Position numbers and translations under genes: made by a program
The notes under the pieces: model-generated
Seen by the model: the letters and a program-made list of their open reading frames with translations, nothing else
What the model was told of the DNA's origin: nothing
The model's database searches: none
Source: Methylobacterium mesophilicum SR1.6/6
GTDB lineage: Bacteria; Pseudomonadota; Alphaproteobacteria; Rhizobiales; Beijerinckiaceae
Direction of reading: 5' to 3'
Assembly: GCF_000364445.2 (NCBI RefSeq)
Contig: NZ_CP043538.1
Span: forward strand, 2,983,612-3,047,611
DNA: 64,000 bases
Shown: positions 13,008 through 46,346 of the stretch, piece by piece
Layout: the number at the start of each line of letters is the position of its first letter
How positions within the stretch are numbered: position 1 is the stretch's first letter

Positions 13008-13627
13008 GGCGCGTCGGCGGCGAAGTCGCAGGGCCGTCGTTTCGGAACCGCCGGCGCGGTGATGGCCCGTCCGCATCGGGCCATTAGGATACCGGGCCGA
13101 TTACCGGTCAGCTCCCAGGACGGTGCGCTCACAGGCGGGTGCTTGCCGAAAGTCTTTCCTGTCCTCGAACATGTCGGTCGATTCGGGTTTGACGTCCTGA
13201 CCGCGCCTGTTCCCCCCGGATGCAAACATGCCTGCGGACCTCCCGTTCGAAGCCGCCTGCCAGATATCCGCCAACGGGAGCCGAAAGTGGCGAACGTGCC
13301 GTGACCGGCGCCGGGCTGCTCGCGGTTCACCACGGGGACCGCCTTCCGATGCCATCCCGGCTCGGAACACCCGGTTGAGCCCGTCTAAAAGATGCTCGAC
13401 ATAACTACCCGTGAACGGGGTAGGTGTTTGAAATGGACGCGTTTGCTCCGCTCCGACGCAGGCGGCCTTGCCAGGCCTGATATTCAGGAGCCCGCCTCCC
13501 GCGTTGCCGGGCGGCGACGGGGTGGCACAATCCCCGCGGAACCCCCCTGGGGTACCGTTGGCGCAATGGCGGCACCGACGAGCGTCCGTGATAATCCGCC
13601 CTTCCAACAAATGGACGGACCAGACGC
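13008..13627. other. Intergenic region with hairpins, no supported gene
   Basis: About 620 bp between the ars operon and the nuclease-like gene. Small open frames here have no recognisable product, codon bias or ribosome site. Apart from the stem-loop at 13062-13084, it has a hairpin CTACCC-N7-GGGTAG at 13405-13423 and an ACCCC-CCT-GGGGT dyad at 13541-13553. The dyad resembles the CsoR-like boxes at 42030 and 44317. No insertion-sequence ends or direct repeats were recognised. Confidence 0.5.
13062..13084. terminator. Stem-loop after the ars operon, possible terminator
   Basis: ATGGCCCG and CGGGCCAT form a perfect 8-bp stem around a 7-base loop, 55 bases after the MFS stop. No strong T-run follows, so it may be a transcript end needing help or only an mRNA-stabilising hairpin. 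Confidence 0.45.
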
Positions 13628-14911
13628 GTGAACCAAGCCACGGTCGCCAATCTCATCCGGCACTGGCGGGAGGACCCAGGGGCCTCCTACCGGACATGGT
13701 TCCTCTGGGAGGAGCGCATCAAGAACTTCCGTTCGATCCGGCGCGGCCTGCAAGCCGTTGTCGACGAGATCAGGGCCGACACGTTCGGTAATGCCTACCG
13801 AGGCTCTTCCCTTGAGACCGTCGTCCATTCGGTCGCGGAGCAGAGGCAGGTGTTCAAGGGGGCCGACCATGCCTTCCTCTGGAAACCCAAGCTTCGCATC
13901 CCCGACATCTACGAGGACCGGGCGAACCAGGTCGTGTTCGGGCGCTTCCTCGATGCCTGCCTGTGCTGCAACGCCGAGGCGCAGGTGCTCGCCGCCGTCC
14001 ACGCGCTCGACCAGGCGCGGATCAAGGGCCTGGGACCGGCCGCGGCGAACCTCCTCTACTTCCTGCACCCGACCTAGGTGCCGCCGTTCAACACCGCCAT
14101 CGTCAAGGGGTACAACGCGCTCACGGGCGCGAAGGTGAAGCTCGGGCGCTGGGACGAGTACCTGGCGATGCGGCGCGGCATCGTGGAGCTCAACGAGACC
14201 CATCGGGCGCTGCTGTCCAATGATTTCGGAGCCGTCGCGGGATTCCTGTTCGACGTCGGATCGGGTCGCTATCCGTTGCCGGACCGGGATGAGGACGGAG
14301 CCTTGGCGCGCTGGCGGGAGGACCTCGACCGCGTCCGCGCGGAAGCGGCGGAGACGGCGTCGCGGTCGGTCCAGGCGGGGCGCGACGCCGATCACACGCA
14401 CACCGAGGTCCAGGGCTGGCTGCGCGACCTCGGGCTCGCCCTGGGCTACGACGTCTGGATCGCCTCGAACGACGGCAACCGGGCCTACGCGTCAGGGCGG
14501 TTGTCCGACGGCTGCCTGGACCGCCTGCCGGCGAGCCTCGCCGCGAAGGGGTCGACGGAGACGGTGCGCCTGATCGACGTGCTCTGGATCGGCAAGGGGA
14601 CCGCGGACGTGGCGGCCGCGTTCGAGGTGGAGCACACGACCAGCATCTACTCGGGCATCGTGCGCATGCTCGACCTCGCGCTCGGCGTCGAGGGCGCCAC
14701 GGCCCGCAACTTCTTCCTGGTCGCACCGGACGACCGGGAGGGCGACGTCCGCGCCCAGTTCGCGCGGCCGGCGTTCTCCCGCGTCGCGGAGCTGGACCTG
14801 CGCTATCTTCCCTACAGCGAACTCCGCGGCCATCGCGAGGCCATCGCCCGCTTCGGCAGCGGCCTGAAGGGCGTCCTTGCCATCGCCAAGCCGATCTCGC
14901 GGGCGACGTGA
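13628..14911 (+). pseudogene. PD-(D/E)XK nuclease-like protein interrupted by an in-frame TAG
   Basis: A single frame from 13628 to 14911 (427 codons) broken only by TAG at 14075-14077. Before the stop: NLIRHWREDPGASYRTWFLW and a helix-hairpin-helix-like IKGLGPAAANLLYFLHPT. After it the protein resumes VPPFNTAIVKGYNALTGAKV with no shift. The C-terminal half has LIDVLW, then AAAFEVEHTTSIYSGIVRML, which has the D...ExE spacing of a PD-(D/E)XK nuclease fold. No methyltransferase is nearby. The function (restriction-like or repair) is inferred from fold only. The stop could be one base change from TTG or CAG. Confidence 0.7.
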
Positions 14912-14974: not shown

Positions 14975-15309
14975 GTCGCGGCGTAGGGCGGATCCTCCCA
15001 AGCGCAGATGCCGGCTCGACGCAAGTCACGGCACCGTCACGTCCGTCCACCCGCGACACGAAGGAAGGGATGCGGCGGGCGCAGATGGAGCCAACCTCGG
15101 AACGCAACAGGTCGGGCGGGGATAAACCACGTCGCGCCGACGCGGCGCTCCACGCGCCCGAAGGCGGTGTTGCCCCGCGATCACATCGAGCACGGAACGC
15201 GCCGGCGGCGCGACTGCCGGCTTGATCCTCCCACGTGGGAAGGCGGCAGCCTCACGGCAACCTGACATGTCGCCCGGCTCCGCGCCGTGGCCCATCTGAG
15301 AGGCCGCAG

Positions 15310-17109
15310 GTGGCGTCGATTCCGAAGAACAATCCCTCTCCGACCCGTCGAAGGTTCGTCTCCGGCCTCGGCGCCTGCGCCGCCGTGGGCCTCGCGGCGC
15401 ACGACCGTTCCGCCTTCGCCCTGGCGAGCCCGGGCGAGCCCACGGTGCCGCGGGCGGCCACGTACGACCTCACCCTGGCCCGCGGCACGGTCGACAAGAC
15501 CGGCACGCCGACCTGGGCCAACACCATCAACGGCGGCGTTCCCGGGCCGGTGCTGCGCTGGCGCGAAGGCGACGTCGTCACCATCAACGTCCGCAACGAA
15601 CTGCCCGAGATGACGGGCATGCACTGGCACGGCATCATCCTGCCCAACGACATGGACGGCGTGCCGGGCCTGGAATTCCCGGGCATCCAGCCGGGCGAGA
15701 CCTTCACCTACCGCTTCCCGGTGCTGCAGAGCGGCACCTACTGGTACCACAGCCACATGGGCTACCAGGAGCAGAAGGGGGTCTACGGTGCGCTGATCAT
15801 CGAGCCGCGCGGCCGTGACCTGGTCCAGGCGGACCGAGATTACGTCGTGCTCCTCAGCGACTGGACAGACGAGGATCCCGAGCGCATCCAGAACAAGCTC
15901 AAGTACCAGGCCGACTACTACAACTTCGGCAAGCGCACGGTGCGGACGTTCTTCGCCGACTCCGAGCGCAGCGGGCTCGCCGACACGGTCAAGGAGCGCT
16001 GGCATGAGTCCGAGTCGCGCATGGACCCTTCCGGCCTGGAGGCGCCGTCCGGCGAGACCTACACCTACCTGATGAACGGGCAGCCGCCCGGGGCCAACTG
16101 GACGGCGCTGTTCCGGCCCGGAGAGCGGGTCCGGCTGCGCATCATCAACGCCTCCGCGGCGACCTACTACGACGTGCGCATCCCCGGGCTGACCATGAGC
16201 GTGGTCAACGTCCACGGCAACGACGTCGTCCCGGTGCAGGTCGACCAATTCCGCATCGGCGTGGCCGAGACCTACGACGTGATCGTGCGCCCGCGCGAGG
16301 CACGGGCTTACACGATCTTCGCGCAGGACCTCGGCCGCTCGGGATACGCCCGCGGCACGCTCGCGCCCCGGTCGGGAATGGAGGCGGAAATCCCGCCCTT
16401 CGACCCGCGGCCGCTGCGGACCATGACCGACATGGGCATGCAGGGCATGATGGGCCGCGACCAGATCGGCGCGTCCTACCCCGACGGCTCGCGCATCGGC
16501 GGCATACTCGGCGAGCACGCCCGCGAGATCGTCCCAGACGAGCGTCGCCTCGCGGGCCACCAACCCATGGCGAAGCTGCCGCCTGGCGTCGAACTCGACG
16601 AGACTGGCGTCGAGGTCCAGATGAAGCCGAAGATGCTTTCCGACCGCACCCGCATCCCGGGCGACGGCCTGAACCAGCTGAACCGCCGCGTCCTGACCTA
16701 CGCCGACCTGCGCTCGATCAACCCCGCCGTCGACGACCGCCCACCGACGCGCGAGATCGTGCTCCGGCTCAGCGGAAACATGCAGCGGATGATCTGGGGA
16801 TTCGACGGCAAGAAGTTCACCGAGGTCGGCCCCATCGACGTGACCGTCGGCGAGAGGTTCCGGCTCGTGATGGTCAACGAGACGATGATGAGCCACCCGA
16901 TCCACCTGCACGGCATGTGGATGGAGCTGGAGAACGGTCACGGCCGGCACCGACCCTACCTCCATACCGTCAGCGTCGCCCCTGCCGAGAAGCTGTCGAT
17001 GCTGGTCACGCCGGTTGCGACCGGGCAATGGCCGCTGCACTGCCACATCCTGTACCATTTCGAGGCCGGCATGTTCCGCACCCTCCGCGTCCTGCCGAGG
17101 GGGGCCTGA
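15310..17109 (+). CDS. copA: Multicopper oxidase CopA (Tat-exported copper resistance)
   Basis: A 599-aa periplasmic oxidase that probably converts Cu(I) to less toxic Cu(II). The Tat signal is PTRRRFVSGLGACAAVGLAA. Copper-site motifs are in canonical order: MHWHGIILP, YWYHSHMGYQ, HPIHLHGMWME and HCHILYHFEAGMF (type 1 site with axial Met). A Met-rich segment (TDMGMQGMMGRDQ) lies in the middle. GTG 15310 is chosen because it directly precedes the Tat region and GAGAGG lies upstream. It overlaps copB by one base. Confidence 0.93.
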   Translation: MASIPKNNPSPTRRRFVSGLGACAAVGLAAHDRSAFALASPGEPTVPRAATYDLTLARGTVDKTGTPTWANTINGGVPGPVLRWREGDVVTINVRNELPEMTGMHWHGIILPNDMDGVPGLEFPGIQPGETFTYRFPVLQSGTYWYHSHMGYQEQKGVYGALIIEPRGRDLVQADRDYVVLLSDWTDEDPERIQNKLKYQADYYNFGKRTVRTFFADSERSGLADTVKERWHESESRMDPSGLEAPSGETYTYLMNGQPPGANWTALFRPGERVRLRIINASAATYYDVRIPGLTMSVVNVHGNDVVPVQVDQFRIGVAETYDVIVRPREARAYTIFAQDLGRSGYARGTLAPRSGMEAEIPPFDPRPLRTMTDMGMQGMMGRDQIGASYPDGSRIGGILGEHAREIVPDERRLAGHQPMAKLPPGVELDETGVEVQMKPKMLSDRTRIPGDGLNQLNRRVLTYADLRSINPAVDDRPPTREIVLRLSGNMQRMIWGFDGKKFTEVGPIDVTVGERFRLVMVNETMMSHPIHLHGMWMELENGHGRHRPYLHTVSVAPAEKLSMLVTPVATGQWPLHCHILYHFEAGMFRTLRVLPRGA

Positions 17110-17903
17110 TGCGCGCGCCGGCAACCCTCGTCCTCGCCCTGTCACTCCTCGCCCTCGCGCCCTCGGCCGCGCTCGCCCAGAGTGTCACGGGCCTTCTCAA
17201 CGGCGGCACCCGCCTCGGATCCGACACGCTCCAGGGGGCGGCGCCCTACGGCAACCCGATTCTCGACGACCGGGTCTACGCCCACGCCTTCCTCGACCAG
17301 TTCGAGGGCCGCCTCGGAAGCGAGAGCTACTTCCGCTACGACGGTCAGGCCTGGATCGGCGACGACTACAACAAGCTGTGGCTGAAGTCGGAAGGTCGCT
17401 ACAACGCCGACAACCGCGGCCGCTTCTCCGACGGCGATCATGAGGCCCTCTACGCCCGGCCGATCTCGACCTACTTCGACATGCAGGTGGGCGTGCGCTC
17501 GGACATCGACAGCCTGCGCAACCGCACCTGGGCCGCCTTCGGCATCCAGGGGCTGGCCATCGGTTTCTGGAACCTCGAACTCACGGGCTATGCCAGCGAC
17601 AACGGGCGCTTCGCCTTCCGGGGCAACGCCTCGTACGACCTCTACCTGACGCAGCGCCTGATCCTGCAGCCGCAGATCGAGATGAACGCCTACTCGAAGG
17701 CCGACCGCGGTCGCGAACTCGGTTCCGGCGTGTCGGACATCGATATGGGGCTGCGCCTGCGCTACGAATTCACCCGCGAAATCGCGCCGTACGTGGGCCT
17801 CTCCTACCAGCAGTTCCTGGGCGGTACGGCGGACTACCGACGCCGGTCCGGCGAGGGCAGCGGGGACCTGCGGGCGCTGGCTGGACTGCGCCTCTGGTAC
17901 TGA
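17109..17903 (+). CDS. copB: Outer-membrane copper resistance protein CopB
   Basis: A 264-aa protein with signal peptide (TLVLALSLLALAPSAALAQ). It is followed by ILDDRVYAHAFLDQFEGRLG and alternating amphipathic strands ending in LRLWY, typical of the CopB/PcoB beta-barrel family. The N-terminal Met-rich repeats of Pseudomonas CopB are absent, so this is the short form. Translation is coupled to copA (TGATG). It probably acts with CopA in periplasmic and outer-membrane copper handling. Confidence 0.9.
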   Translation: MRAPATLVLALSLLALAPSAALAQSVTGLLNGGTRLGSDTLQGAAPYGNPILDDRVYAHAFLDQFEGRLGSESYFRYDGQAWIGDDYNKLWLKSEGRYNADNRGRFSDGDHEALYARPISTYFDMQVGVRSDIDSLRNRTWAAFGIQGLAIGFWNLELTGYASDNGRFAFRGNASYDLYLTQRLILQPQIEMNAYSKADRGRELGSGVSDIDMGLRLRYEFTREIAPYVGLSYQQFLGGTADYRRRSGEGSGDLRALAGLRLWY

Positions 17904-37892: not shown

Positions 37893-38225
37893 ATGCATCA
37901 GATATCGAGCGAAATGCAGTCCTGCATCGACGAGTGCCTGCGTTGCTATCAGACCTGCCTCGGCATGGCCTCGAACCACTGTCTTGAGGCGGGCGGCAAG
38001 CATGCCGAGCCGGAGCACTTCCGGCTGATGCTGGCCTGCGCTGAGATATGCCGGACCTCGGCGCACTTCATGCTGCTCGGGACCCCGCATCACAAGCACA
38101 CCTGCGCGGAGTGCGCCGACGTCTGCGAGGACTGCGCACGCAGCTGCGAGCAGGTCGGCGACATGGACGACTGCGTCGCGCAGTGCCGGCGCTGCGCCGA
38201 GAGCTGCCGGAAGATGGCGGCCTGA
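37893..38225 (+). CDS. Csp-type four-helix-bundle copper storage protein
   Basis: A 110-aa cytoplasmic protein with about 16 cysteines arranged as CxxxC and CxxC along helices: SCIDECLRCYQTCLGMASNH, LMLACAEICRTSAHF, ECADVCEDCARSCEQVGDMD, QCRRCAESC. This is the DUF326/Csp3 pattern, in which a bundle of Cys-lined helices stores many Cu(I) ions. There is no signal peptide, so it is Csp3-like rather than the exported Csp1 type. It is followed by a glutaredoxin-MauE fusion in the same direction. Confidence 0.92.
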   Translation: MHQISSEMQSCIDECLRCYQTCLGMASNHCLEAGGKHAEPEHFRLMLACAEICRTSAHFMLLGTPHHKHTCAECADVCEDCARSCEQVGDMDDCVAQCRRCAESCRKMAA

Positions 38226-38289: not shown

Positions 38290-39039
38290 ATGTCAACGGC
38301 CACCGCCCGCAAGGCCACCCTGTACCGCATGGTGATGGAGAAGCACCTCTGCCCATACGGGCTGAAAGCCAAGGACTTGCTCGAACGCGAAGGCTTCGAG
38401 GTCGAGGACCACTGGTTGACCACTCGTGAGGAGACCGACCGCTTCAAGGCCGAGCATCAAGTCAAGTCGACGCCGCAGACCTTCATCAACGGCGAGCTCG
38501 TCGGCGGCTTCGACGACTTGCAGCGCCACTTCGGCAAGGCCGCCAACGACCCGAACGCCACGACCTACACGCCCGTCGTCGCGGTCTTCTCGATGACGGC
38601 GCTGATGGCGCTGGCGGCGAGTTACGCCGCCTACGGAACGCCGCTGACGATGCGTGCGGTCGAGTGGTTCATCGCCTTCAGCATGTGCGTGCTCGCCCTC
38701 CTGAAGCTGCAGGACGTGGAGAGCTTCTCGTCGATGTTCCTGGGCTACGACCTGCTCGGGCAGCGCTGGGTACGCTACGCCTACGCCTACCCCTTCCTGG
38801 AAGGCATCGCGGGCGTCCTGATGGTGGCGGGCGCGCTGGACTGGATCTCGATTCCCGTCGCCCTGTTCATCGGCACGGTCGGCGCGGTCTCGGTGTTCAA
38901 GGCGGTCTACGTCGACAAGCGCGAGATCAAATGCGCCTGCGTCGGCGGGTCGAGCAAGGTGCCGCTCGGCTTCGTCTCCCTGACCGAGAACCTGATGATG
39001 GTCGCCATGGGCGTCTGGATGCTCGCCGTCCACCATTGA
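38290..39039 (+). CDS. Glutaredoxin-MauE fusion membrane protein
   Basis: A 249-aa protein. Residues 1-85 are a glutaredoxin domain (MVMEKHLCPYGLKAKDLLER, then VKSTPQTFINGELVGGFDDL) with a monothiol-type CPYG site. From about 95 a four-helix MauE/DoxX-like membrane domain follows (AVFSMTALMALAASYAAYGT, YAYPFLEGIAGVLMVAGALD). It ends with a CACVGGSSKVPLGFVSLTEN loop whose cysteines could exchange with the glutaredoxin. It probably controls thiol redox state during copper storage. The ribosome site is weak. Confidence 0.85.
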   Translation: MSTATARKATLYRMVMEKHLCPYGLKAKDLLEREGFEVEDHWLTTREETDRFKAEHQVKSTPQTFINGELVGGFDDLQRHFGKAANDPNATTYTPVVAVFSMTALMALAASYAAYGTPLTMRAVEWFIAFSMCVLALLKLQDVESFSSMFLGYDLLGQRWVRYAYAYPFLEGIAGVLMVAGALDWISIPVALFIGTVGAVSVFKAVYVDKREIKCACVGGSSKVPLGFVSLTENLMMVAMGVWMLAVHH

Positions 39040-40197: not shown

Positions 40198-41454
40198 GTG
40201 CCGAAAAGAAAACTTCTGCTGGTCGTCGGCGCCGGTGCGTCCCTCGAATTCGGCATGCCCCCCGTCGCGGGGGTCCGGGCCATCATCAACGACGCCATCC
40301 AGGTGCGCTACCCGTTGCTCGCCGAGCCCGCGACGAACCTGTACGAACATGTCGAGGGCTTGGTCAGAGCCCACTGGCAGCGGACGGTGCCCGAGTTCCT
40401 GCGCCGCGAGCCGCACTACGAGGACTTGCTCTACGCCATCTTCGCCGTCGCCGCGGCTTACCCCGCCGGCGCCGCGACCTCGGCGTTGGGCGCGGTCGTG
40501 ACAGCCAAAGGAATGCCCAACGTCTCGCTTTTCGGTCGGCAGGCCACACCGGTCGGGCCGGACACCCTGCGCGACCTCGGCCGCGCGTCGGTCGATGCGG
40601 TCGTGGAGGCGTTCCGCGAGCGCTGCGCCGCCAGCGAGGCGGACAAGGCGTCCGAGTTCGCGAAGCTCCAAGTGCTGGTCGCCGCGTTGCAGGCCGAGTT
40701 CGACATCGCGGTGGTCACCCTGAACTACGACAATGTGATGTACCGCGCCTTTCCCGGCATCGAGACCGGCTTCGACCCGGCGACCGGCATGTTCGACCAG
40801 GAGCGCATCCTCCGGCGATCCGGCTGGGCATGCATGCTGCACCTCCACGGGTCCGTCCATTTCGACATGGAGCCGGGTTCGACCGGAGACATGCACGAGA
40901 TCCGCTGGCAGCCGGATATCCGCGGCCGCTTCCACCAGAACGCCGGCGGCCGCAGCACGCGCTCCCACGTGGAGGGCATCGATTTCCCGACCTCGGTCAT
41001 CGTCGCGGGATACGGCAAGACGACCCAGATCCTGAAACGGCCCTTCCGCACCTACTACTCCGAGCTCGACCGTCTCGTGGCCGGATGCGACGCCGTGCTC
41101 TTCGCCGGATACGGGTTCGGCGACGAGCACCTGACCGTGGCCTTCGAGGGCTTCCGCGATGCGCGGAACCGACCGGTCGCCGTCATCGATTTCGCGTGGG
41201 ACGACGCCATGACGATGGGGGGCGCCGACCTCGGCGGCCCCAACGCCATGGTCGACGAGATGGTCCGGACGTTCCTGACCGAGCCGCGGACCATGCGCGC
41301 CCTCGGCTACGCGGCCCCGCAGACGGTCGCGGACCTCAAGGCCGCCCGTGAATTCGAGACCTGCGTGGACCCGGCCACGCCCTTGGCCGTCTGGTACAAC
41401 GGCATGCTCGCGGCCTGCGAGGAGCCGGCCAAGGTTCTCGCGCGTCTGGCGTGA
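40198..41454 (+). CDS. SIR2-like domain protein, possible defence NADase
   Basis: A 418-aa protein. LLLVVGAGASLEFGMPPVAG at the N-terminus is the SIR2 nucleotide-binding loop. Further SIR2 features are FDIAVVTLNYDNVMYRAFPG, MLHLHGSVHFDM and DAVLFAGYGFGDEHL. Stand-alone and effector-linked SIR2 proteins are often anti-phage NAD-degrading enzymes. Here no partner (TIR, Argonaute, HerA or MazG-like) is adjacent. GTG start with GGGAGGAG upstream, 16 bases after the CsoR-type gene. Whether it is defence or metal related cannot be told from the sequence. Confidence 0.82.
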   Translation: MPKRKLLLVVGAGASLEFGMPPVAGVRAIINDAIQVRYPLLAEPATNLYEHVEGLVRAHWQRTVPEFLRREPHYEDLLYAIFAVAAAYPAGAATSALGAVVTAKGMPNVSLFGRQATPVGPDTLRDLGRASVDAVVEAFRERCAASEADKASEFAKLQVLVAALQAEFDIAVVTLNYDNVMYRAFPGIETGFDPATGMFDQERILRRSGWACMLHLHGSVHFDMEPGSTGDMHEIRWQPDIRGRFHQNAGGRSTRSHVEGIDFPTSVIVAGYGKTTQILKRPFRTYYSELDRLVAGCDAVLFAGYGFGDEHLTVAFEGFRDARNRPVAVIDFAWDDAMTMGGADLGGPNAMVDEMVRTFLTEPRTMRALGYAAPQTVADLKAAREFETCVDPATPLAVWYNGMLAACEEPAKVLARLA

Positions 41455-42029: not shown

Positions 42030-42046
42030 ATACCCCTAAGGGGTAT
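42030..42046. promoter_or_regulatory. CsoR-like operator before the Tat-protein gene
   Basis: ATACCCC-TAA-GGGGTAT is a perfect 17-bp palindrome with G/C-tract arms, the usual shape of CsoR-family operators. It ends 16 bases before ATG 42063, so a repressor here would block transcription or translation of that operon. A close copy is at 44317-44331, and a CsoR-family gene is at 39879. Confidence 0.75.
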
Positions 42047-42062
42047 CGGGTCGGAGGGCGGC

Positions 42063-43424
42063 ATGATCGGACGGCGGATCTTTCTCACCGGCGCGATGGC
42101 GTCGGCGGCCTCGGTAGCCTTGGGCGGCACCGCCGCGCGGGCCTTGGGCGGCATCGAGCAGCGCAACGAGGTGAGCTTCCTGCGGGGGCCCTACAACCTC
42201 GCCTTCTACTACCGGCTCAACAAGGCCTACCGCATCGGGGCCGGGATGCACTTCTTCCACTCGAAGCAGCACGACCTGCTGCAACTGACCCGGTTCGAGG
42301 ACCACGCCGCTGTCGATGCCCGCTTCGACAAGGAGGCGCAGGAGTGGCTGCGCGACCCACCGGCCATCGAGCCGGAGATGCCGTACTACTCGAACTACGT
42401 TGACCGGGCGATGCACACGCTGTTCCGGACCATCGACTGGACGCACATGCATCACGAGCAGACCTACGACGTGATGGCGTTCCGCGAGATCCCTTGGGCC
42501 GAGAAGAAGGCGTGGACCGACCGAGCGGTCAAGTATTACCTCACGATGCAGACGCCGGGCGTGCCCCGCAGCGTCGCCCCGCTGGAGCTGACCATGCGGC
42601 GGGCGGGCATCATGATGAAGCCCTACTTCAATTATTTCCGGAACTTCTATCCCCTCGACCAGAGCCTGTTCTACGTCGCCCACTGGTGGCACCCGGCCGC
42701 CTACGAGACGCAGATGATCTCGGGCAACCGCGACCAGGAGGCCGCGATGGCCCAGACCATCGACCTCATGTACCGCGAGGTCATGCCCGACCGGCCGGGC
42801 CGCATGCTGCTCTCGCGCGAGATCATGCCGCGCTACGCCCGGATGAGCCCCGAGAGCGCGAACATCTTCGACAACCTGCACATGCTCCACGGCATCGCCT
42901 ACTCGATCCTCGCCTACAAGGGCTGGTCGGTCGAGGAGAAGCGGGCCGAGATGTACCGGGTCATCGAGGCCATGGGCTACCAGCCCGGCGACGAGGCCTA
43001 CGCCCGCAAGTTCCGCGAGCCCCATCCCGGCTTCGACCCGAGGACCTATCCCGCCTGGGTGCGCTCGCCCCAGGGCGCGATGGGCATGATCATGATGGAC
43101 ATGCTCATGGAGATGCTGCCGATGATGTACCCGGGCGGCCTGTCCAAGGCGCAGCGGGCCGCCGTCATGCGGCAGATGATGATGAACGGCCGTCTCGGCA
43201 TCGAGCCCGGCGAGGTGCCCGGATCGCTCCACGACGCCCTGATGCAGGTCGCGCCCGGCATGATGGCGATGCCCGGCTCGACCGAGCCGGGCGAGGTCCC
43301 GGCCATGATGGTCGAGCGCATGGTCCAGGCCTGGAAGGCCAAGGCTGCCCGCATGCCCGACGTCGCCCCCATCGACATGACCGTCGAGCCGAGCCTCGGC
43401 CCGGCCCGCGTCGCCGCCCGCTGA
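42063..43424 (+). CDS. Tat-exported His/Met-rich protein of unknown function
   Basis: A 453-aa protein. MIGRRIFLTGAMASAASVAL is a short Tat signal. The mature part is rich in His and Met: MHFFHSKQHDLL, TIDWTHMHHEQTYDV, FDNLHMLHGIAYS, and a Met-packed segment GAMGMIMMDMLMEMLPMMYP. The early His-containing helices resemble the spacing of a metal centre but match no family I know. Start 42063 follows the CsoR-like palindrome. It is followed 12 bases later by an outer-membrane protein gene. A copper-binding or copper-oxidising envelope role is inferred. Confidence 0.75.
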   Translation: MIGRRIFLTGAMASAASVALGGTAARALGGIEQRNEVSFLRGPYNLAFYYRLNKAYRIGAGMHFFHSKQHDLLQLTRFEDHAAVDARFDKEAQEWLRDPPAIEPEMPYYSNYVDRAMHTLFRTIDWTHMHHEQTYDVMAFREIPWAEKKAWTDRAVKYYLTMQTPGVPRSVAPLELTMRRAGIMMKPYFNYFRNFYPLDQSLFYVAHWWHPAAYETQMISGNRDQEAAMAQTIDLMYREVMPDRPGRMLLSREIMPRYARMSPESANIFDNLHMLHGIAYSILAYKGWSVEEKRAEMYRVIEAMGYQPGDEAYARKFREPHPGFDPRTYPAWVRSPQGAMGMIMMDMLMEMLPMMYPGGLSKAQRAAVMRQMMMNGRLGIEPGEVPGSLHDALMQVAPGMMAMPGSTEPGEVPAMMVERMVQAWKAKAARMPDVAPIDMTVEPSLGPARVAAR

Positions 43425-43436
43425 GGAGACGCCCCG

Positions 43437-44270
43437 ATGTCGACGACCACGCGCGCCGCCCTCACGGCCCTCCTCGCCCTCACGGCCGGCCCCGCGCTCG
43501 CCGCCGACCACACCAACCTGGAGGAGGGGCTGCCCATCACCATCGAGGACGCCTACCCGATCAAGGAGAACGGCCTCGAAGTTCAATCTTACTTTCAGTA
43601 CAACCGCATCCGGAACGACCCGCGCGGCGCCAGCAGCCTGATGGCGGTGCCGCGCCTTGAATGGGGCGCGTTCAAGAACTTCCAGCTCTCGGTCGAGGCC
43701 CCGTACCGGGTCGGTACGGCGAGCGACACCGACCAGGGCGAGTTCCGGGCGCAAGGCTTCTACAACTTCAACCAGGAGGGGCTGGTCCTGCCCGCCATGG
43801 CGGTCGCACTCGGGGTGAACACCCCCTACGGCCGGATGGCCGGCGGCACGGAGACCGAGCTCAAGTTTCTGGCGACCAAATCGCTCGGCACCCCAGACCC
43901 GGAGGGATTGTCGCCGTACTCCTACGTGCCGCGCCAAGTGCACTTCAATGCGTCGTGGTTCCACAACTACGACCCGACGACCGGCCGGGAGGCCGAGCGG
44001 CGCGACCGCTACCGGGTCGGCGTCGCCTATAGCCAGCCGATCTCGAATTCCGTCGTCCTCGTCGCCGACGTCTACCGCGAGACCGACCGCGAGCGAGGTC
44101 GGGCGGTGAACCTTGCCGAGATCGGCGCGCGCTACATGGTGACCCCGCAGACTGTGCTGGTCGGCGCCGTCGGCGTCGGCTTCGGCGGCGACCGCAGTCA
44201 GGATTTCCGGGTCACAGCCGGCCTGCAGCACTCCTTGAGCTTCCCGTATTCCTGGGATCCGCCGCGTTGA
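43437..44270 (+). CDS. Outer-membrane beta-barrel-like protein
   Basis: A 277-aa protein with signal peptide (AALTALLALTAGPALAADHT). The chain shows alternating strands (GLEVQSYFQYNRIRND, FKNFQLSVEAPYRVG, VNLAEIGARYMVTPQTVLVG) and ends with aromatic-rich LQHSLSFPYSWDPPR, consistent with a barrel of the transporter-like OmpF/phenol-degradation meta-pathway type. It follows the Tat protein gene by 12 bases and probably shares its transcript. Its tail also ends PPR, like the small secreted metal proteins, though it is larger and lacks the Cys cluster. Confidence 0.72.
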   Translation: MSTTTRAALTALLALTAGPALAADHTNLEEGLPITIEDAYPIKENGLEVQSYFQYNRIRNDPRGASSLMAVPRLEWGAFKNFQLSVEAPYRVGTASDTDQGEFRAQGFYNFNQEGLVLPAMAVALGVNTPYGRMAGGTETELKFLATKSLGTPDPEGLSPYSYVPRQVHFNASWFHNYDPTTGREAERRDRYRVGVAYSQPISNSVVLVADVYRETDRERGRAVNLAEIGARYMVTPQTVLVGAVGVGFGGDRSQDFRVTAGLQHSLSFPYSWDPPR

Positions 44271-44316
44271 CCCTGGATTGAACAGCATGGGTGTGTTGCG
44301 TCACTTCTGGGAACCT

Positions 44317-44331
44317 TACCCCTAGGGGGTA
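44317..44331. promoter_or_regulatory. Second CsoR-like operator, before the DUF4396 gene
   Basis: TACCCC-TAG-GGGGTA, nearly identical to the palindrome at 42030-42046. It lies 31 bases before ATG 44363. Two matching boxes 2.3 kb apart, each directly before a gene, indicate that one regulator controls both transcription units. Confidence 0.75.
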
Positions 44332-44362: not shown

Positions 44363-45097
44363 ATGTTCCCGGAATGGTTCCACGCAGTCTCGATCCTGGC
44401 CCTGCTGCTCGGTGCAGCCTGCTCGCTGCTGCTCTCGGTCCAGGTGATCCGGCACCCGCAGCACATGACGGTGATGAACGTCGTCTGGCCGGTCAGCGCT
44501 CTGTTCGGGACGCTCGTCGTCGTCTGGGCGTACTACCGCTACGGCCGGCTCGCGACCATGGAGGCGCACCACCACGCCAAGGAGCGGGGCGAGAAGCCGC
44601 CGAACATGACCCAGACGCCGTTCCCGGTGATGGTCGGCAAAGGCGCGCTCCACTGCGGCAGCGGTTGCATGCTGGGCGATGTCGCCGCCGAATGGCTCGC
44701 CTTCCTCGTGCCGGCGGTGGCGGTCTGGTTCGGCTGGCATTCCTTGTTCGAGGAGAAGATGTACGCAGTCTGGGTGCTGGACTTCGTCTTCGCCTACGCT
44801 CTCGGGATCGCATTCCAGTATTACGCCATCGTACCGATGCGCGGCTTGTCGCCCGGCCAGGGGCTCGTGGCGGCGGTGAAGGCGGACACCGCTTCGCTGA
44901 TCGCCTGGCAGGTCGGCATGTACGGCCTCATGGCGCTGGTGCAGTTCTGGCTGTACCCGCACCTCGCCGGGCAGGCGGCCCCGGTGAACTCGGTCGAGTT
45001 CTGGTTCGCCATGCAGGCCGCCATGGTGGCGGGATTCCTGACCAGCTACCCAGTGAACTGGTGGCTCGTCGGTTCCGGGATCAAGGAGCGGATGTAG
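44363..45097 (+). CDS. DUF4396 membrane protein
   Basis: A 244-aa protein with about six helices. A His-rich loop (MEAHHHAKERGEKPP) precedes the family motif KGALHCGSGCMLGDVAAEWL, whose Cys-Gly-Ser-Gly-Cys is probably a metal or redox site. Later helices include VLDFVFAYALGIAFQYYAIV and AAMVAGFLTSYPVNWWLVGS. ATG 44363 is chosen because earlier in-frame codons overlap the operator. DUF4396 proteins often accompany copper genes and may move copper or a thiol; no activity is established to my knowledge. Confidence 0.85.
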   Translation: MFPEWFHAVSILALLLGAACSLLLSVQVIRHPQHMTVMNVVWPVSALFGTLVVVWAYYRYGRLATMEAHHHAKERGEKPPNMTQTPFPVMVGKGALHCGSGCMLGDVAAEWLAFLVPAVAVWFGWHSLFEEKMYAVWVLDFVFAYALGIAFQYYAIVPMRGLSPGQGLVAAVKADTASLIAWQVGMYGLMALVQFWLYPHLAGQAAPVNSVEFWFAMQAAMVAGFLTSYPVNWWLVGSGIKERM

Positions 45098-45435: not shown

Positions 45436-46346
45436 TTACACCGGAAGGCGGGCGGCCTCGACCGCAAGCGCCTCGTCCTCGACCTGGATGGTGACGTGCT
45501 CGATGCCGTGGCGTTCCTTCATCATGGGACGGACGCCCCGGATCACGTCGGGGCTACGGGCCACGTCGTCCACGATCACGTGCCCGCTCATGGCGTCGCA
45601 GCCGGAGGTCGGCGTCCAGGCATGCAGGTCGTAGGCTCGCCGGCCATTCGGCATCGCCTCGATCCCGGCCTTCAATGCATCGAGGTGGACGCCCGGCGGC
45701 GTGCCCTCCAGCAGGATGTGCAGCGCCTAGCCCAGGAGGCGCCAGGTGCGCGGCAGGATGAACAAGCCGATGCCGGCGCCGACGAGCGGATCGACCCAGA
45801 CCCAGCCCTTCGCCATCACCACCAGGGCGGCCACGATCACGCCGAGCGAGCCCAGCATGTCCGAGAACACCTCGAAGCAGGCGCCCTTGACGTTGAGGCT
45901 GTCGGACGAGCCGCCGGCCAGGAGCTTCATGCCGGCGAGGTTCGCGCCGAGGCCGGCAAGCGCCACCAGCACCATCGGCCAGCCGAGGATCTCGGTAGGC
46001 TCCGCTAACCGGAGGTACGCCTCGAAGAGGATGTAGGCCATCACCCCGAGCAGCACGACCGCGTTGGCCAGTGCCGCCAGGATTTCGAAGCGCATGGTGC
46101 CGAAGCTCTTGCCGGGCGTCGGCGCCTTGCCCGCGTAGTGGAAGGCGAGCAGCGCCAGCCCTTCGCGTCCGTGACCATGTAAGCGGCACCGGCCAGCAGC
46201 GCGAGGCTGCCGGTGAGCAGGCGGCCCACGACCTCCGCGCCCATGTAGGTCAGCGTCAGCGCGAGCGCCCAGGCGAGGCGCCCCTTGTCACGGGCCGCCG
46301 CCGAGACCGCGGGGATGCCGCCCCCGTGAGTATGTCCGTGTCCCAT
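45436..46346 (-). pseudogene. Cation diffusion facilitator (CzcD-like), frameshift plus nonsense
   Basis: The gene begins at 46346 with a His-rich GHGHTHGGG and the first helices (LAWALALTLTYMGAEVVGRL, LLAGAAYMVTDA). The frame is then lost near 46170 where two extra bases occur. The correct frame resumes with FEILAALANAVVLLGVMAYI and FEVFSDMLGSLGVIVAALVV. It is interrupted by TAG at 45727-45729 (PRTWRLLG-stop-ALHILLEGTPPG), and the C-terminal cytoplasmic domain continues to 45436 (AYDLHAWTPTSGCDAMSGHV). Two independent lesions make a functional product unlikely. An intact CDF gene is at 53217. Confidence 0.88.

Follow-up and report, generated by a model that had tools for sequence, protein, structure and literature searches.

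The Pco/Cop system pairs a Tat-exported multicopper oxidase (CopA/PcoA) with an outer-membrane protein (CopB/PcoB). For copper-responsive repressors of the CsoR family, the operator consensus in Streptomyces lividans is ATATACCCCTNAGGGGTATAT, and type 2 sites are described in the sections of that work consulted (PMC3902906). CsoR boxes similar to those reported here occur in Bradyrhizobium and C. glutamicum, according to the consulted part of PMC5057107.

We analysed a 64,000-nt stretch of DNA of a Methylobacterium-type bacterium, the window, to which all coordinates refer and which belongs to a genome of one contig (6,555,179 bases). As the initial annotation had claimed, two matching CsoR-like palindromes precede the genes of a Tat-exported protein and of a DUF4396 protein (Table 1). 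The Tat-protein gene starts 17 bases past the end of TACCCCTAAGGGGTA (box 1, last T at 42045) and the DUF4396 gene 31 bases past box 2. The outer-membrane protein placed between them was found as a barrel gene separating the Tat gene from box 2, and the CsoR-family gene described as lying 2 kb upstream is a PF02583 gene about 1.85 kb before box 1.

Table 1. Features of the locus and their positions in the window.
Feature	Position	Strand	Basis
Csp-like Cys-rich four-helix copper storage protein	37893..38225	+	weak DUF326 match, E 0.0022, below cut-off
Glutaredoxin-MauE fusion	38290..39039	+	also adjoins DUF4396 in relatives
CsoR-family repressor, 100 aa	39879..40181	+	PF02583, E 9.4e-22, 77.7 bits vs cut-off 22.8
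Box 1, ATACCCCTAAGGGGTAT (arms ATACCCC and GGGGTAT around TAA)	42030..42046		predicted CsoR type 2 operator, consensus match
Tat-exported protein, 453 aa	42063..43424	+	Tat signal; no Pfam, NCBIfam or PDB sequence match
Outer-membrane barrel, 277 aa	43437..44270	+	PF13557/FapF/COG4313-like by relatives and model
Box 2, TACCCCTAGGGGGTA (arms TACCCC and GGGGTA around TAG)	44317..44331		predicted CsoR type 2 operator, consensus match
DUF4396 membrane protein, 244 aa, HCGSGC motif	44363..45097	+	PF14342, E 2.3e-40

The locus is probably a CsoR copper regulon that induces an undescribed periplasm/outer-membrane copper-handling pair together with DUF4396. CsoR would act as repressor on two predicted operators, one at the Tat-barrel promoter and one before DUF4396; as cytosolic Cu(I) rises, CsoR would bind the metal and release the operators, and the genes of the set would be expressed. 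The Tat protein would reach the periplasm by export and may bind copper there through its invariant histidines and its Met-rich C-terminal part, with the FapF/COG4313-like barrel as its putative outer-membrane partner, and DUF4396 might handle copper at the inner membrane. By analogy, the pair could work like PcoA/CopA and PcoB/CopB, from unrelated proteins.

Both boxes show the feature of type 2 operators, TAC/GTA repeats flanking two G/C tracts, and by this comparison their type is an already known, textbook CsoR operator. A window scan with TACCCCTANGGGGTA allowing up to three mismatches returned 6 strand-matches against 1.11 expected, and 6 or more were reached in 0 of 100 shuffles. Over the whole genome, exact TACCCN5GGGTA was found in two places only, box 1 and box 2. 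With up to one mismatch the pattern was found 29 times, whereas its reversed control occurred 114 times. A weak third box-like site at 13540-13554 was taken as chance because the 27 one-mismatch sites in 6.56 Mb correspond to about 0.26 expected per window. Near this site, two consecutive ORFs (13628-14911) resemble one longer gene that in relatives stands beside RTX genes and boxes, as in L093:5372-6724, which has no Pfam match.

Upstream of the Tat gene, the box is present in the window and in 14/14 Methylobacteriaceae loci (9 distinct sequences), with the arms TACCC and GGGTAT invariant; the other invariant columns of the same alignment are the start codon and about two scattered ones. Thirteen further copies of the Tat gene were examined, some of them from the same species as the 14 loci. 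The box was found in 11/11 genus-sample copies and in the copy on plasmid pMaq22A_1p, but a copy on an M. fujisawaense plasmid (74% identical) lacks it, which counts against the reading. The latter copy (L107:11992-14347) is annotated as hypothetical and lies near NADH-quinone oxidoreductase genes. In four loci (L006, L007, L010 and L013), a TTGAC was recognised by eye, with 16-17 bases between the end of its hexamer and the left box arm; given this spacing the box would cover the -10 element, fitting repression by occlusion. The window has no clear -35 upstream of the Tat gene.

In the 60 loci outside Methylobacteriaceae, fitting CsoR boxes were found only in Jannaschia (L018) and Tautonia (L031), which also counts against the reading. 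In Tautonia, csoR and the Tat gene are divergent, with two boxes between them; in Jannaschia a box before csoR heads a same-strand run of csoR, glutaredoxin-MauE, DUF305, Tat and barrel genes, another box preceding a cytochrome c gene. A box was also looked for in a second Jannaschia locus (L022), where none was seen.

The distribution of boxes was then compared with that of CsoR in a genus sample of 79 genomes. A close relative of the window CsoR (67-100% identity) occurs in 11/79 genomes, ten with the Tat gene and one (G019) in which csp and csoR carry boxes, yet no Tat match was obtained. The mean number of boxes per genome was 4.6 in these 11 and about 0.5 in the other 68, that is 0.55 in the 38 with other PF02583 genes only and 0.37 in the 30 without any. 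At least two boxes were found in 11/11 genomes of the CsoR clade against 5/68 others (Fisher p 4.8e-10, a value overstating independence since the genomes of the genus are related). The reversed control pattern showed no difference, with 5.0 in genomes carrying the Tat gene and 4.8 in those without it. On sequence comparison, the box tracks one CsoR clade across the 79 genomes.

Genes for Csp, DUF305, P1B-ATPase, multicopper oxidase or CsoR, counted as copper genes in loci of differing length, neighbour the Tat gene in 13/14 Methylobacteriaceae loci, in 18/29 of the loci L018-L046 (15 without ATPases) and in 3/31 of the loci L047-L077, compared with 0/19 control stretches, all of which belong to the genus and order of the window. 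In other taxa, 139 of the 182 neighbours predicted there entered a Pfam tally, whose top families were DUF305, RND, P-type ATPase, YHS, HMBD and DUF326. The Csp assignment is helped by two relatives (L023 and L031) that match DUF326 above the cut-off. The csp gene of the window has no box; in relatives a box lies between divergent csp and csoR.

In related genomes, boxes were further found before a CopM-like DUF305 protein (under the NCBIfam cut-off), an ArsP_1 permease resembling the SO_0444 Cu/Zn exporters (below cut-off) and an OMP_b-brl protein. The initial description of a compact regulon is borne out for the window's genome, where only Tat-barrel and DUF4396 have exact boxes, but in relatives the regulon is wider. 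An RTX calcium-repeat protein (L093:3568-5169), with CsoR-type boxes upstream in methylobacterial genomes, is an unexpected member. Boxes before genes with no copper link, such as this one and the gene lacking a family match behind one box in G042 (L095), count against the CsoR-copper reading, as does a box in G013 (L102), a genome without the window's CsoR clade, beside which no copper gene was seen.

The window itself carries a metal island (15235-56906) comprising multicopper oxidase, CopB, RND, HlyD-type efflux, YtkA-like, cation efflux and ZntA-like ATPase genes. At 45436-46346, on the minus strand, a cation-efflux gene (PF01545) is seemingly split over several ORFs. Between csoR and box 1, starting 17 bases past the end of csoR, lies a SIR2-like gene (40198-41454; PF13289; PADLOC SIR2 models, best E 4.4e-12) overlooked in the earlier description; among the 14 Methylobacteriaceae loci, a SIR2-like match was found only in M. 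brachiatum (L016).

As to the metal sensed, alignment of the window CsoR with the solved CsoR 4m1p matched Cys42 and His67 to Cys and His, and Leu71 replaces the second Cys. The Cys-His-Cys (X-Y-Z) set of Cu(I) ligands is therefore incomplete, its third ligand being absent, which counts against copper. Position 71 is Leu or Val in 7/7 Methylobacteriaceae rows of the family alignment, and Cys is retained there by the CsoRs that adjoin Tat-barrel in Jannaschia (L018) and Tautonia (L031). Tyr41, immediately before Cys42, is present in 9/9 rows and occupies second-shell position A. In the consulted portion of the InrS study (PMC4235346), Cu(I) selectivity appears to be predictable from such a tyrosine, and the W-X-Y-Z pattern is no predictor of the metal. 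Glu91 is invariant in 9 rows, and we infer its equivalence to second-shell position B. As the third canonical ligand is lacking, the assignment to copper rests on the context and on the second-shell tyrosine, from which copper is the most likely signal of CsoR.

The strongest competing explanation accepts that the boxes belong to the window CsoR and proposes that its signal is Ni/Co/Zn, formaldehyde (the host being a methylotroph) or a sulfur species, the envelope set serving that stress. Besides the missing third ligand, it draws on the ability of PF02583 proteins to sense also Ni/Co, formaldehyde and persulfide (PMC5016687, in the part consulted), on the Zn/Cd-type genes also present in the window, and on His8 and His15, found in 7/7 Methylobacteriaceae rows, as possible CsoR ligands. 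We nevertheless regard it as unlikely: a tyrosine before the cysteine is described as typical of Cu(I) sensors (PMC4235346, same portion), and copper genes surround the set and in relatives have the same box. The traits of the Ni/Co sensor RcnR are missing, as CsoR has Leu/Val and not His at Z and the operator is of type 2 and not type 1, and Pro2 of the formaldehyde sensor FrmR is Ser or Ala in 7/7 Methylobacteriaceae rows, assuming the annotated start.

The Tat protein defines a family that is undescribed within the literature and databases that could be searched. Its predicted model is all-helical (pLDDT 91.1) and had no convincing match among solved PDB structures. No Cu-oxidase domain was detected by Pfam in the window protein or among the families of 40 members. 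A tree of 40 members spans 11 phyla. Six histidines are invariant in the family, and the C-terminal part is about 20% Met in 28/28 long members. A short branch (L047-L076, Nitrospira and relatives) is without the Met-rich part and often has His at the end. The family is rare, as it was found in 1/398 genomes of a phylum sample, namely the window's own, and in 3/72,556 plasmid records; one scan of viral contigs gave no relatives.

The barrel gene starts after a gap of 12 bases and adjoins the Tat gene in 73/74 loci. PF13557 was matched by 24/39 barrel relatives (E <=0.1, best 2e-8), the window barrel itself being unmatched. The barrel model shows about 12 strands (pLDDT 85.6, pTM 0.79), and its best fold matches in the PDB were FapF (E 3.6e-9) and the COG4313 channel 4rl8 (E 1.1e-7); PcoB ranked 27th (E 8.5e-6), as with many porins. 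Assignment of the barrel to CopB/PcoB (PF05275) was rejected, CopB being detected in 0/39 members and the hhalign probability against the window's CopB being 3.3.

These features bear on a second alternative, in which the pair is regulated by copper but is an enzyme or an envelope-protection device and binds no copper. It would agree with a Tat protein that has no known domain and for which neither structure search gave a known copper protein, and with the short members, which have no Met-rich part yet still carry the His core and stand beside a barrel gene. The short Nitrospira members are also mostly without copper neighbours, which, like their missing Met-rich part, counts against the copper reading. 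The six invariant histidines, the methionine content of all long members and the recurrence of copper neighbours in several phyla make this alternative improbable, even more so than a different signal.

The reading as a copper regulon extends to DUF4396, which was found in 26/79 genus genomes at 31 places, 30 of which were examined. A box within 400 bases upstream was present only in the 4 copies adjoining Tat-barrel; in L151, a DUF4396 locus whose gene was unplaced by tblastn, no box occurs anywhere in the stretch. A P1B-ATPase, glutaredoxin-MauE or CueR gene lies within 3 kb of 21/26 boxless copies. Beyond the genus, Geomonas (L030) and 10/31 of the loci L047-L077 also have a DUF4396-like gene close to the Tat gene. 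In the open-licence literature, as far as its accessible text goes, DUF4396 is named in one paper, and there only as flanking a metal cluster (PMC7760498). Because of its copper neighbours and of a box present only beside Tat-barrel, DUF4396 looks like a copper accessory brought under CsoR together with that pair.

That the boxes are chance palindromes or the sites of another regulator, for which one further PF02583 gene nearly 2 Mb from csoR could be invoked, is very improbable and was rejected on the genome-wide counts and exclusivity, the shuffles, the conservation of the box alone upstream and its co-occurrence with one CsoR clade.

The initial annotation had proposed a copper (or other metal) regulon of CsoR type over an uncharacterised envelope set, and operator match, clade tracking in the 79 genomes and copper-gene neighbours elsewhere all argue for it. 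Its statement that the set has no described counterpart holds for the cargo and not for the operator: the regulation is of a known kind, and the cargo is undescribed in the searchable open-licence literature. Among the papers of that literature listed for CsoR and related terms, none was recognised as a description of the boxed Tat-barrel-DUF4396 set, and CsoR and DUF occur 0 times in the main text of a paper on copper in M. extorquens AM1 (PMC9948745), as consulted. As the regulation is known, the cargo becomes testable, since the CsoR switch points families with no assigned function to copper.

In comparison with the CsoR copper regulons of S. lividans (csoR/copZA), Bradyrhizobium (csoR-cueA) and C. 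glutamicum, as seen in the portions of the sources consulted, the locus is alike in operator sequence and type, in its PF02583 repressor and in its copper context. Those regulons drive Cu-ATPases and chaperones, whereas the targets here are the Tat protein, the barrel and DUF4396; unlike their repressors, the window CsoR has no third ligand, and its clade may thus serve as a test case of whether Cu(I) sensing needs one. Csp is a frequent neighbour of the Tat gene and in relatives has the box in common with it, but it is Cys-rich, whereas the Tat protein is His/Met-rich, and the two are unrelated by sequence search. The FapF/COG4313/PF13557 barrels are the closest fold match of the barrel model; unlike in the FapF and COG4313 systems, no link to amyloid (Fap) or aromatic pathways was seen, and partner and context are of copper type.

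The Pco/Cop system is similar by analogy, in having an exported periplasmic protein and an outer-membrane barrel among copper genes. It differs in that the Tat protein of the window is without a Cu-oxidase domain and the barrel is not CopB; the window holds a separate CopA-CopB pair at 15235-17903. We find the evidence about evenly balanced on whether Tat-barrel is an undescribed envelope copper system apart from Pco/Cop, Cus and Cue, centred on an exported protein with a His core, a Met-rich part and a fold unseen in solved structures, a system that dispersed across phyla and in methylobacteria came, along with DUF4396, under the control of a variant CsoR able to sense copper without a third ligand. 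The Tat family keeps its barrel partner in 73/74 loci and extends over 11 phyla, yet has no Pfam or NCBIfam entry, and if it binds copper it would add one more envelope copper-handling system to the few known.
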